Source of the DNA: Henriciella aquimarina
GTDB taxonomy: Bacteria > Pseudomonadota > Alphaproteobacteria > Caulobacterales > Hyphomonadaceae
Length of the DNA stretch: 64,000 nucleotides
Assembly (NCBI RefSeq): GCF_002088975.1
Contig: NZ_NCST01000112.1
Span: 1 to 64,000, forward strand
Reading direction: 5' to 3'
Shown here: positions 8,873 through 16,772 of the stretch, in pieces
How positions within the stretch are numbered: the stretch's first letter is position 1
How the letters are laid out: every line of letters starts with the position of its first letter
Notes under the pieces: model-generated
The model's database searches: none
Told to the model about the DNA's origin: nothing
What the model saw: only the letters and a program-made list of their open reading frames with translations
Program-made: the position numbers and the translations under genes

Positions 8873-9805
8873 TCATTGTTCGGGGTTAGATGTCCGATGC
8901 GTTTCCCTCGATGTGTCTTCCGCGCGTTCCTTCATGATCGCATAACTGGCGACAATATCGAGCAATTGCTGGGTGATGGAGTTCTGGCGTTCCTCTCTGA
9001 TGCTGGTCCCGAGCTCCGAGAGATAATCCTCGATGTGATGCTCAGCACGCTGCATGGCGGCAAGGCGTGAGGCATGTTCGCTGGCCAGCGATTCTCCGAC
9101 AGCCTTGAAGAGCCCGAGGAAGACAAGCTCCCGGGTAAGCTTCGAGAACAGCGCTTCGGGCTCTGCTGTAAAGCTCGGCAAACCCCGCGTCGGCCAGGGC
9201 TTTTCTCTTAACCGGCTGAGCCGCTCTGCGGTGACCGGAAGAAGGGTCTCCTCCACCGTTTCGGCAAGTCTTTGTGTGGTCCGGCGGTTATAGATCACGC
9301 GGACCTCTCCGATCTGGTGGCTCTCGCGCTGCTCATCCAGCCACATCAGGATGGTCTGCACGGTTTCACCGATCGCGTCGGCCGTATTGGGAACCGGGAT
9401 TGTCTGGTTCGGGACAATATCCCGGGCCATGATTCGGCCTTCCGCCCGAATGCCGACGGTCAGGATGCGGGCTCCATCGGCCCCAACGGTTCCTTCTGCA
9501 AACGCCGCGGCTGTGCGCTCGGCGACAGTGTCGTTGAAGCGTCCGCAAAGCCCCCGGTCCGACCCGACAATGATATAGGCCGGACTGGCCTCGGGCGGGG
9601 GCGTGACGAGGATAGATGATAGCGTCGCTTCGCGGAGAAGCGCCTGAAGGCCGAGGTCAACGACTTCGTGATAGTCCAGCATGGCGCTGACAGCAGCATC
9701 ATACTGGCGAATGCTGACAGCCGAGAGGGATTTCATGACACGGACTACCGAGCGCAGGTCCTCTCCGGTCTTTTCCTTGCGCAGCATTTGCTCCAGCGTA
9801 CTCAA
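8873..9805 (-). CDS. atpG: N-ATPase gamma subunit
   Basis: This 310-residue protein is the central rotor shaft of the alternative F-type ATPase, linking the c ring to the catalytic head. The N-terminal helix and the C-terminal helix (AMQRAEHHIEDYLSEL) have the coiled-coil pattern of gamma, and the middle holds the Rossmann-like segment VGSDRGLCGRFND. The gene is last in the operon and its ATG overlaps the atpA stop by four bases. N-ATPase operons place gamma last, as here. After it, a palindrome CTTCAGTACTGAAG sits at 8815-8828, but no clear terminator. Confidence 0.92.
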   Translation of the reverse strand: MSTLEQMLRKEKTGEDLRSVVRVMKSLSAVSIRQYDAAVSAMLDYHEVVDLGLQALLREATLSSILVTPPPEASPAYIIVGSDRGLCGRFNDTVAERTAAAFAEGTVGADGARILTVGIRAEGRIMARDIVPNQTIPVPNTADAIGETVQTILMWLDEQRESHQIGEVRVIYNRRTTQRLAETVEETLLPVTAERLSRLREKPWPTRGLPSFTAEPEALFSKLTRELVFLGLFKAVGESLASEHASRLAAMQRAEHHIEDYLSELGTSIREERQNSITQQLLDIVASYAIMKERAEDTSRETHRTSNPEQ

Positions 9806-11346
9806 GAGCTTGTTTCCTCGCCTGATATGAGGCCGGCATTTTCCAGCGCTGTTCGCATGGCTTGCAGGATCTCCGACTTGCCTTTGTCGTCCAGGCCTTC
9901 CTTTGCGCTGAGCTGAGAGGAGAGGTCCGGCAGGTCACGGCGTATAACGGTTTCTGCCTCGGGGAGCTTCTCCATGGCCACAGCGTCCAGCAGGCCGGAC
10001 GTGGCCGCCAGCAGCACGCCGATCTGCTCGGCCATGGTCATGCGGTCATGTTCCCCCTGTTTCAGGATCTCGCGGATCCGCCGGCCCCGTTCCAGTCGTT
10101 GGCGGGTATCCTTGTCGAGCCTGGCCCCGAACCGGGAAAAGGCCTCCAGCTCTTCATACTGCGCATAGTAGAGGCGAAGATCGGGGGCGACCATGCGATA
10201 GGCGCGCTGCTGGGCGTCGCCGCCGACACGCGAGACGGAAAGGCCGATGTCCACGGCCGGCAGAATGCCTTTCTGGAAAAGGATCGGAGACAGATAGATC
10301 TGGCCATCCGTAATCGAAATCAGGTTGGTCGGGATATAGGCCGAAATATTCTGGGCCTGCGTTTCGATGACGGGCAGGGCGGTTAGCGAACCGCCGCCCT
10401 TGGCCTCTGACAACTGGGCGGACCGTTCCAGAAGGCGGGAATGAATATAGAAAATGTCACCCGGATAGGCTTCCCGCGCAGGCGGACGCCGCAAGAGGAG
10501 CGACAATTCCCGATAGGCGCGTGCATGGCGGGTCAGGTCGTCATAGATGATGAGAACGTCCTTGCCGCGTTCAACGAAATACTCGGCCATGCTGGTCGCG
10601 GCATAGGGCGCGCTGAATTGAAGGCCGGGTGCGTCCTCGCCGCTAGCAGTCACGACGATACTGCGTTGCATCACATCATTCGCCTTGAGGTTCTGGATCA
10701 CACGGGCCACGGCGGAGGTGCGCTGACCGATCGCGCAATAGATGCAGATCACGTCCTCGGCACTCTGATTGATCATGGCGCTGACGGCAATTGCGGTCTT
10801 GCCTGTCTGCCGGTCGCCCAGGATCAGCTCGCGCTGGCCGCGCCCGACAGGGATGGCGGCGTCGATCGACTTGATCCCGGTCTGCAGGGGGCGGCTGACG
10901 GGCGCCCGGTCCATGATGGCGGGCGCGTGCCGTTCGATGGGCCAGTAGGTGGCCGCCTTGATCGGGCCGCGTTCATCCAGCGGCCGGCCGAGACCATCGA
11001 CGACACGGCCGAGCAGGGCCGGACCGACCGGCGCATCCAGCGTACGTTTCGTACGCCGGACTTCATCGCCTGTCTGCAGGTGATCGGCATCGCCAAGCAG
11101 GACGATTCCGGCCATGCCCTGGCGGATGGTCGAGGCCGTCCCGTAAAGACCGCCCGGAAAGCTGAGCAGCTCGTCGATCAGCAATTCGGAAAATCCGCTG
11201 ACATGCGCGACGCCTTCCCCGACCTCGGCCACGATGCCGACCTCAGCGAGCGTAGGATCCGGCCTCAGGTTACGGCGTGCTTCGTCGAGCGCACCGAACA
11301 GGGCCGCACTCATGCTCTTCAAGCTGGGGGACGGGCGGTCAGTCAT
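9802..11346 (-). CDS. atpA: N-ATPase alpha subunit
   Basis: The 514-residue non-catalytic nucleotide-binding subunit of the F1-like head. It carries the P-loop GDRQTGKT (177-184) and the VGRGQRELI region, and is of normal length. The start chosen is ATG at 11346, overlapping the atpF stop as ATGA; the open frame extends 31 residues further upstream only within atpF. It works with beta, gamma and epsilon to couple ATP hydrolysis to ion pumping. Confidence 0.94.
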   Translation of the reverse strand: MTDRPSPSLKSMSAALFGALDEARRNLRPDPTLAEVGIVAEVGEGVAHVSGFSELLIDELLSFPGGLYGTASTIRQGMAGIVLLGDADHLQTGDEVRRTKRTLDAPVGPALLGRVVDGLGRPLDERGPIKAATYWPIERHAPAIMDRAPVSRPLQTGIKSIDAAIPVGRGQRELILGDRQTGKTAIAVSAMINQSAEDVICIYCAIGQRTSAVARVIQNLKANDVMQRSIVVTASGEDAPGLQFSAPYAATSMAEYFVERGKDVLIIYDDLTRHARAYRELSLLLRRPPAREAYPGDIFYIHSRLLERSAQLSEAKGGGSLTALPVIETQAQNISAYIPTNLISITDGQIYLSPILFQKGILPAVDIGLSVSRVGGDAQQRAYRMVAPDLRLYYAQYEELEAFSRFGARLDKDTRQRLERGRRIREILKQGEHDRMTMAEQIGVLLAATSGLLDAVAMEKLPEAETVIRRDLPDLSSQLSAKEGLDDKGKSEILQAMRTALENAGLISGEETSS

Positions 11347-14968: not shown

Positions 14969-15372
14969 GTCAGCCGCTCCATCTCGACGAAACGGCGGAT
15001 GAGGCTGGTTTCGAGCCGGTCCAGGGCGGATCGGGCCGCAAGCGCATGGGCGGTGTGGACTTCGAATTCCTCATGCACCCGCTCCTGCAGGCGCTCCAGG
15101 CTCGATTCGCTCAAAGCATGATGGGTCGCGACGCGGACACGCTCGCCAGCTTTGACGAGAAACCCTTCGTCGATGCCCAGAAACCGCTCGCCACCCGACA
15201 CCGGTTCGAAGGCCAGGATGCCGGCTGTCAAAGGCGCGACGAAATCGACATGCCGCGGGAGCAATGCAAAGGAGCCATTTGTCGCTTCGGCAATGACCTT
15301 CCTGACCCGCTCGTCGGTGACAATGTGCGTCGGCGTGACGACGGTCAGGTGTATGTCCACCGGCCGGGTCAT
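14965..15372 (-). CDS. atpC: N-ATPase epsilon subunit
   Basis: The 135-residue central-stalk subunit has the N-terminal beta-sandwich (THIVTDERV, FALLPRHVDFVAPLTAGIL) and a C-terminal helical pair with many Glu/Arg residues (EVHTAHALAARSALDRLE). It binds gamma and usually regulates ATP hydrolysis. The start codon shares one base with the atpD stop (TGATG). It is of normal length. Confidence 0.92.
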   Translation of the reverse strand: MTRPVDIHLTVVTPTHIVTDERVRKVIAEATNGSFALLPRHVDFVAPLTAGILAFEPVSGGERFLGIDEGFLVKAGERVRVATHHALSESSLERLQERVHEEFEVHTAHALAARSALDRLETSLIRRFVEMERLT

Positions 15373-16772
15373 CAGGCAGCCTCCGAGGTGTCTGGCAGGT
15401 CCCCGAGGCTGCCTTTCATGTAGAAAGCGCTTTCTGGCCGGTCATTCAGCTCGCCACTGAGAATGCGCTTGCAGCCGTCGATCGTGTCTTCGAGGGGCAC
15501 CAGCGCGCCCGCATGGCCGGTGAACTTCTCCGTTGAGAAAAAGGGTTGTGTCAGGAAGCGCTCCAGGCGCCGCGCCTTGGCCACCGTCGCGCGGTCCTGT
15601 TCGGAGAGCTCTTCGGTGCCCAGCATCGCGATGATGTCTTTCAGCTCCTCATATTCGGCGAGTACCTGGCGAACCTCCCGCGCCACCTTGTAATGCTCCG
15701 GGCTGACGCTTTCCGGGGAAAGAAGCTTCGAGGTCGACTTTAGCGGATCGATGGCCGGATAAAGGCCCATGCTGGCGCGCTTGCGCGACAGGACAATCGA
15801 GGCTGACAGGTGCCCGAAGGTGTGCGTCGCAGCCGGATCGGTGAAGTCGTCAGCCGGGACATAGACCGCCTGAACGGAGGTGATCGAGCCAGCCCTGGTG
15901 TTGCTGATGCGCTCTTCCAGCCCAGCCAGTTCCGTTCCGAGTGTGGGCTGGTAGCCGACCCGGGAAGGCGTGCGGCCGAGCAGGCCGGAGACTTCCCCGC
16001 CCGCCTGCACGAAGCGGTAGATATTATCGATCAGGAGCAGAACGTCCTGGTGGCGGTCTTCCCGGAAATACTCCGCCATGGTGAGGGCGGCATGTCCGAC
16101 CCGGAAGCGTACGGCCGGCGGCTCATTCATCTGTCCGAAGATGAGCACTGCGCGGTCGAGCACCTCCGCGCGCTTCATCTCTCTATAAAGCTCCTCGGCT
16201 TCCCGGCTGCGCTCCCCGATCCCGCAAAACAGGCTGACGCCCTCATGGGCGCTGGCAATGTTGTGGATCATTTCGGTGATGAGCACGGTCTTGCCGACGC
16301 CGGCGCCCCCAAACAGGCCCGCCTTGCCGCCCCGCTCGAGCGGGGCCAAAAGGTCGATAGCCTTGATCCCTGTGACGAAGACCTCCGTATCGATCTGGCG
16401 CTCTGAAAGGCTGGCGGGCGCACCGTGAATGGACCGGTATTCGACGTCTTCAAGTGGCTCGCCATGGTCGATGGGTTCGCCCAGCGCGTTGAGAGCCCGT
16501 CCAAGCAGCGCCTGACCCGTTGGTACGCGGATCGGTGCCCCGGTGCTGATGACGGACGCGCCGAGCGCGAGTTCTGTGGACGGGGTCATCACGAGCGCGC
16601 GCACGGTATGCGGACCGGTCAGGCTGGCAACTTCGGCGATAATGTCCTGATGCTCGCCGATCCGCAGCATGGTGTTGATGGCCGGCGGCTGGCCGTCAAA
16701 CCGGATGTCGACGACGCTGGCTTCGATGCCGATGACTTCTCCATGATCCTGTGTCTTCAGGACATCATGCAT
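15372..16772 (-). CDS. atpD: N-ATPase catalytic beta subunit
   Basis: The 466-residue catalytic subunit begins the operon. The P-loop GGAGVGKT is at 155-162, followed by the catalytic GERSRE segment, a Walker [11 protein letters not shown] and a DELSEED-type loop reading TEELSEQD. Having beta first and gamma last is the N-ATPase order, opposite in logic to the housekeeping atp operon. The ATG at 16772 follows AAGGGCAAG. The 270-bp region upstream is shared with the divergent Na+/phosphate symporter and must hold the operon promoter, which I cannot assign. Confidence 0.95.

Follow-up and report, generated by a model that had tools for sequence, protein, structure and literature searches.

The 64,000-nucleotide stretch of Henriciella aquimarina DNA analysed here (contig NZ_NCST01000112.1; hereafter the window) carries a complete ten-gene N-ATPase operon on its minus strand, at window 16772-8873. 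The genes stand in the order D-C-Q-[X]-R-B-E-F-A-G, where X denotes a cation/proton antiporter gene embedded between atpQ and atpR. All ten frames are open on the minus strand and match the expected families, in the order and at the coordinates proposed in a first-pass annotation of this DNA. The operon anatomy, the overlaps of X with its neighbours, the recurrence of the arrangement across phyla, the correlation between X and pump-gene distances, the residue signatures and the likeness of X to the antiporter NapA make it, in our judgement, fairly probable that X is a co-translated Na+/H+ antiporter partner, the tenth cistron, of a Na+-pumping variant of the N-ATPase operon. The same slot and the usual tiny overlap, found in very distant bacteria, suggest a pump/exchanger pair for salty or alkaline places.

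Dibrova et al. 2010 reportedly gave the N-ATPase operon as atpDCQRBEFAG. The same order is found in PMC9927469, PMC3543383, PMC4154653 and PMC6688271 (here and below, papers are cited for those of their parts that our literature search covered), and operon variants that are split or lack atpR are also reported. Once X is set aside, the window operon follows this order. It shares the nine genes, the two-carboxylate ESTxxY type of c subunit and the lack of a separate delta gene, the sole delta/OSCP stretch in the operon being the end of atpF, and it differs in its tenth gene, a Na+/H+-antiporter homologue between atpQ and atpR. It is also a second copy beside a canonical F-ATPase, whose beta gene lies elsewhere in the genome (TIGR01039 845 bits, versus 608 bits for the window atpD). 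The beta, alpha, gamma and b subunits score best with the 'alternate F1F0' models, yet they remain below the cut-offs of those models. Neighbouring genes overlap by 1-11 nt and atpB and atpE touch, so that the earlier statement that each gene overlaps or touches the next is correct for every junction except atpE/atpF, where the genes are 4 nt apart. A promoter and terminator scan, covering promoters of the sigma-70 type only, gave nothing above shuffled sequences.

The best start of X is the ATG at 14673, which yields 412 residues; another in-frame ATG lies upstream at 14706. With the start at 14673, the overlaps of 8 nt with atpQ and 4 nt with atpR and the D166-D167 pair, all described before, are recovered exactly. 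The sole Pfam match of X at E 0.001 is PF00999, and the RCK domain of Kef proteins is lacking, as the first-pass annotation had it. PF00999 finds three further antiporters in the genome, none of which was recovered by a search with X at E 1e-10. In a profile search of solved chains, X matched NapA at E 3e-44 and KefC at E 1e-20, and the best fold match of an AlphaFold2 model of X (pLDDT 92) was again NapA (TM 0.80/0.86, 27% identity). Among 47 aligned X homologues, in and out of operons, D166, D167 and K326 are invariant (47/47), as are T136 and S137 in helix 4 and R353 and E355 in helix 11, which are as in NapA; position 162 is V, I or A, so that no glutamate stands at position 5 of the CPA motif. 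Aspartate at position 6 and lysine at position 8 of this motif mark electrogenic CPA2 antiporters and helix-4 residues distinguish Na+ from K+ types, while some CPA2 proteins with the position-8 lysine may be electroneutral (PMC6181914). From these residues, X is predicted to be a NapA-like, electrogenic Na+/H+ exchanger. Relative to NapA of Thermus thermophilus (PDB 4bwz, 5bz2), it shares the fold, the D-D pair, the core lysine, the helix-4 T-S and the helix-11 R/E, but it is 27% identical and often part of a rotary ATPase operon. Compared with X of Marinicaulis flavus, the window X has a dN/dS of 0.14 (dS 1.28, rough), close to that of atpA (0.16, rough). A broken or idle X was thereby ruled out for the window and Marinicaulis copies, the core residues being invariant in all 47 homologues.

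The arrangement is not confined to this strain, a concern raised in the first-pass annotation: it recurs across phyla, and the aligned homologues are open frames, broken copies not having been searched for. Among 29 genomes of the window's own genus, an N-type a subunit (E 1e-50) was found in two, the window genome and G406, and in the latter atpQ is followed directly by atpR without X. The window genome is alone in its genus in having the arrangement, and 27 of the 28 others have no N-type a subunit. Among 200 genomes of the order, high-identity X occurred only in the window genome and in that of Marinicaulis flavus (G484; 73%), which has an operon of the same ten genes; all other matches were at most 29% identical. 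A tblastn search of plasmids at E 1e-30 returned one record, pMB02 of Acaryochloris sp. 'Moss Beach' (37% identity), in which X is annotated between the atpQ and atpR homologues and already labelled 'cation:proton antiporter' in the public annotation. The gene is therefore visible in databases, and it is apparently undiscussed in the parts of the literature covered. The Na+-ATPase operons of Aphanothece halophytica and Acaryochloris marina are of the cyanobacterial Na+ type of N-ATPase, with a reported contribution to salt tolerance (PMC8949462). The covered part of that paper describes the A. marina operon with the Aphanothece gene order and names no antiporter, whereas the 'Moss Beach' plasmid has X. 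More generally, the literature search found no report of an antiporter inside an N-ATPase operon in the parts of papers it covered; Dibrova et al. 2010 lay outside its scope, and a remark there is possible.

When named genomes were scanned with an alignment of three sequences, at least 114 relatives of X were confirmed and the best 80 of them were retained, which is no census. In 29 of these best 80, X is next to atpQ, atpR or both; at three of the 29 (loci L083, L092 and L103) the retrieved DNA has neither R nor B after X. X also occupies the slot at four further loci, namely L157, L185, L221 and L256, the last from the same organism as L081. Hosts with X in this slot belong to at least seven phyla (Pseudomonadota, Cyanobacteriota, Zixibacteria, KSB1, Planctomycetota, Thermodesulfobacteriota and Balneolota), and many of them are cyanobacteria. 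A strain-specific insertion is ruled out by the same slot in other phyla, and this recurrence, together with the purifying selection on X (dN/dS 0.14), argues that the arrangement is not due to chance.

The junction itself is conserved. The X start is in frame and precedes the atpQ end by exactly 8 nt in 25 of the 30 operons in which both genes are readable, versus an atpR start at the same position in 17 of 93 operons without X (Fisher p 2e-10, a value that ignores kinship). This shared 8-nt junction argues for a common origin or for strong selection on coupling, and the overlaps of X with atpQ and atpR would allow translational coupling. Start codons at -8 of the atpQ end that atpR does not use ('ghost' starts) are present in 15 of 122 loci without X. 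Comparable -8 starts at other gene ends range from 4/168 (atpE) to 48/142 (atpC), so that 'ghost' starts, considered as scars of a lost X, are not above background; four of the genomes with such starts hold X elsewhere, which is a hint.

The rotor subunit was compared between operons with and without X. Glutamate at the position that we take to correspond to E32, together with ESTAIY, is present in all X-bearing operons with a readable c subunit (31/31, one duplicate pair kept). The full Na+ signature is present in 79 of 121 operons without X (Fisher p 2e-5, ignoring kinship and with a few duplicates kept). ESTxxY is a c-subunit Na+ motif (PMC6688271, PMC6504805). The ion is not fixed by sequence alone, because the Aphanothece enzyme is cited as Na+-coupled (PMC8949462) and the N-ATPase of Burkholderia pseudomallei, with its two-carboxylate rotor, is reported to be H+-specific (PMC5376962).

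To place X in its history, trees were built by a quick search with SH-aLRT support only and have many weak branches, so that the history is not settled by them. The X homologues group together, separate from six other CPA2 proteins (SH-aLRT 100, with long-branch warnings and with NapA not included). Within this group, copies from operons are interspersed with free ones (14 and 15 changes, versus shuffled means of 27 and 29), and free copies occupy the deepest rows. In the tree of the a and c subunits, the X-bearing operons are scattered, with 17 parsimony changes of which at least 7 are forced by starred branches, and a single origin, with these operons forming one clade of that tree, was rejected (p-AU 3.6e-7, quick tree). 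Distances between X proteins correlate with those between their pump genes (a+c), with r 0.76 over 28 operons (Mantel p 0.0002) and r 0.50 over 16 thinned operons (Mantel p 0.0004). Because of the shared 8-nt junction and these correlated distances, fully independent captures look unlikely. We favour an old Q-X-R junction that spread between lineages with the operon and was often lost or relocated; repeated capture of X by the operon is possible. The operon does not have the atypical base composition that would mark a transfer, its GC content (0.61-0.63) lying within the range of the window (0.57-0.64).

If X is a Na+/H+ antiporter partner of the pump, the pair could work as follows. The N-ATPase would use ATP to export Na+ and would move positive charge out along with it, and X would take one Na+ out per two H+ in under a normal proton-motive force. 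X would thus bring net positive charge in, the pump and X would each relieve the electrical back-pressure of the other, and together in one membrane they would amount to an ATP-powered, nearly electroneutral Na+-out/H+-in exchanger. Such exchange would be what a cell needs at high salt and high pH. Without ATP, X could still export Na+ on the proton-motive force, and without a proton-motive force the pump could still export Na+ on ATP. The first-pass annotation had proposed a two-way Na+/H+ module. The coupling-capable overlaps, the recurrence, the Na+-type rotor residues and the NapA-like signature are consistent with a Na+/H+ module, but the 'two-way' element is unsupported, because both proteins should export Na+ at a normal proton-motive force. 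Reversal of a NapA-type antiporter requires a nearly collapsed proton-motive force, and for a 2H+/Na+ antiporter to run backwards, the Na+ gradient would have to be more than about twice the proton-motive force. In the parts of the literature covered, one N-ATPase is reported as a Na+ pump and another as a H+ pump; a tightly coupled NapA-like gene, in this sample only with the full Na+ signature, points to Na+/pH homeostasis.

Several observations weigh against a Na+-exporting pump/antiporter partnership. The link between X and the Na+ signature is not significant in phylogenetically independent pairs: of 6 pairs, on average 1.6 changed in the same direction, 0 in the opposite direction and 4.4 showed no difference. 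The H+ specificity reported for B. pseudomallei belongs here, as does the report that N-ATPase transcripts of Synechococcus PCC 7002 did not rise with salt (PMC3468840). Of the best 80 X loci, 51 are outside the slot, and for 49 of these 51 the retrieved DNA, in some cases a short piece, holds no N-ATPase gene; in the two others X lies near the operon, divergent from atpD (L078) or about 4.5 kb upstream (L084). In the pump tree, the X-bearing operons do not make up a single clade. Finally, a reverse count was made from surveys by the a-subunit model, with gene order assigned by profiles and with the window and survey centre genomes excluded; six N-type places without a fetched locus are uncounted and a few genomes contribute two loci. 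X was in the slot in 0/29 fetched loci from the class of the window, 0/15 loci from its phylum that were not already counted, 1/12 decidable loci from the phylum of a Richelia genome (4 undecidable), 1/27 from that of a Syntrophobacterales genome (2 undecidable) and 1/25 from that of a Planctomycetota genome. Overall, X was in the slot in 3 of 108 decidable survey loci. Most N-ATPase operons have no X, so that the pump can do without it, and the ten-gene form is in the minority, with a very wide and scattered distribution.

A rival account is co-regulation only, in which X would be an ordinary salt-stress gene captured by the operon and simply expressed with it, with no energetic or physical coupling to the pump. 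In favour of this account, which we regard as somewhat unlikely, are the off-slot majority among the best 80 loci, the scattered minority of X-bearing operons and salty habitats that suit both genes. Free copies also have no widely shared second context within four genes on each side (three loci unparsable): the largest neighbour family occurs in 7 loci, at differing positions, and several X loci of halophilic Ectothiorhodospiraceae/Spiribacter have common neighbours, as expected of close kin. Against co-regulation only stand the fixed position and mostly fixed 8-nt overlap across large evolutionary distances, the correlation of X distances with pump-gene distances and an enrichment of N-ATPases in genomes with unlinked X. 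An N-ATPase (E 1e-55) was found in 18 of 46 tested genomes with unlinked X, drawn from the 49 unlinked-X loci, versus 92 of the 1136 genomes covered by the four phylum surveys. Neither phylum nor habitat is matched between these two sets, the base rate is raised by the window and centre genomes, which are counted among the 1136, and X also sits in the slot in the genomes of L121 and L132, two of the 18. This enrichment suggests that the association extends beyond the operon; shared salty habitats alone could explain the co-occurrence of X and N-ATPase.

A more specific version of the partnership, which we put forward tentatively and think rather unlikely, is that X would be dedicated to the pump and perhaps attached to the pump's membrane sector, the pair forming an ATP-powered electroneutral Na+/H+ exchanger. 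Na+ export by the N-ATPase would then create a voltage that brings two H+ in and further Na+ out through X. Such a use of a rotary ATPase is not described in the covered parts of the literature examined. If charge were shared in this way, this would be, to our knowledge, the first known rotary ATPase operon to bring its own charge-balancing antiporter. It is highly unlikely that X instead serves the assembly or regulation of the N-ATPase membrane sector, with transport secondary or lost: X overlaps both atpQ and atpR, and a role in assembly or regulation has been suggested for the neighbour atpR (PMC4154653, PMC9927469), but the transport residues are invariant in 47/47 homologues in and out of operons and most N-ATPases manage without X. 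A Kef-type K+/H+ antiporter serving K+ or pH balance rather than Na+, to which a broad CPA2 model of NCBIfam (below cut-off) and weak KefB/KefC matches would point, is scarcely credible, because NapA beats KefC by sequence and fold and because X, sharing the CPA2 fold with KefC, has D-D where KefC has Q-D before and at the ion aspartate, carries the A-T-S-V of NapA in helix 4 where KefC differs, and has no C-terminal RCK domain.

Table 1. Genes and gene junctions of the N-ATPase operon in the window.
Feature	Position	Strand	Evidence
atpD, N-ATPase beta, 466 aa	15372..16772	-	TIGR03305 737 bits (cut-off 752), TIGR01039 608 bits
atpC, epsilon, 135 aa, 1-nt overlap with atpD	14965..15372	-	TIGR03166 112 bits, over cut-off
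atpQ, 100 aa, 4-nt overlap with atpC	14666..14968	-	TIGR02230 135 bits, PF09527 59.6 bits
X, NapA-like cation/proton antiporter (predicted), 412 aa	13435..14673	-	PF00999 152 bits; NapA best PDB match; D166-D167, K326
atpQ stop/X start overlap, 8 nt, ATGACTGA	14666..14673	-	sequence; same in 25/30 X-bearing operons
X stop/atpR start overlap, 4 nt, ATGA	13435..13438	-	sequence
atpR, 107 aa, 11-nt overlap with atpB	13115..13438	-	PF12966 28.3 bits (cut-off 26); no NCBIfam match
atpB, a subunit, 235 aa, GTG start	12418..13125	-	TIGR03306 346 bits, over cut-off
atpE, c subunit, 93 aa, two-carboxylate type, ESTAIY	12136..12417	-	TIGR03322 148 bits, over cut-off
atpF, b subunit with C-terminal OSCP/delta stretch, 262 aa	11343..12131	-	PF00430, PF00213
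atpA, alpha, 514 aa	9802..11346	-	TIGR03324 738 bits (cut-off 750.5)
atpG, gamma, 310 aa	8873..9805	-	TIGR03323 245 bits (cut-off 282)

Other genes were found within or beside N-ATPase operons. P-type cation ATPases occur near X at L076, L118 and L123, too few to call. The N-ATPase operon of Waterburya agarophytonicola has a gene for a type II P-type cation ATPase between X and atpR (L118 3368-6178), and in Desulfatitalea alkaliphila X is followed directly by one (L076). Another X-bearing operon has a homologue of a ribosome hibernation factor (NF052287, below cut-off) between atpA and atpG (L085 11138-12367). In some cyanobacteria the N-ATPase operon is broken up by other frames (L093 11502-13138, L129 2524-4201 and L099 13162-16245), among them antitoxin-like and transposase-like ones, named by eye. 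Operons without X vary as well: one has a 153-codon frame with no convincing Pfam match between atpQ and atpR (L023 393-851, plus strand), and in an alphaproteobacterial operon (L209 1477-3138, minus strand) atpB is fused to an N-terminal TPR-repeat domain, giving a product of 553 residues in which PF00119 and TPR families match within a single frame; this frame comes after an AtpR-like one at 3056-3370.

Next to the window operon and divergent from it lies a homologue of Na+/Pi cotransporters (PF02690; window 17043-18662, plus strand), for which a search of 82 X-bearing loci at E 1e-10 gave no match. Elsewhere on the plus strand of the window, a P-type cation ATPase gene whose product has an N-terminal stretch weakly matching HMA_2 (23059-26079) is followed by a gene for a DUF445 protein (26151-27812). 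A further plus-strand gene (3884-7093) encodes a single protein of 1069 residues that combines an ammonium transporter with HAMP, PAS, GGDEF and EAL domains, by its architecture a putative ammonium-linked c-di-GMP enzyme.

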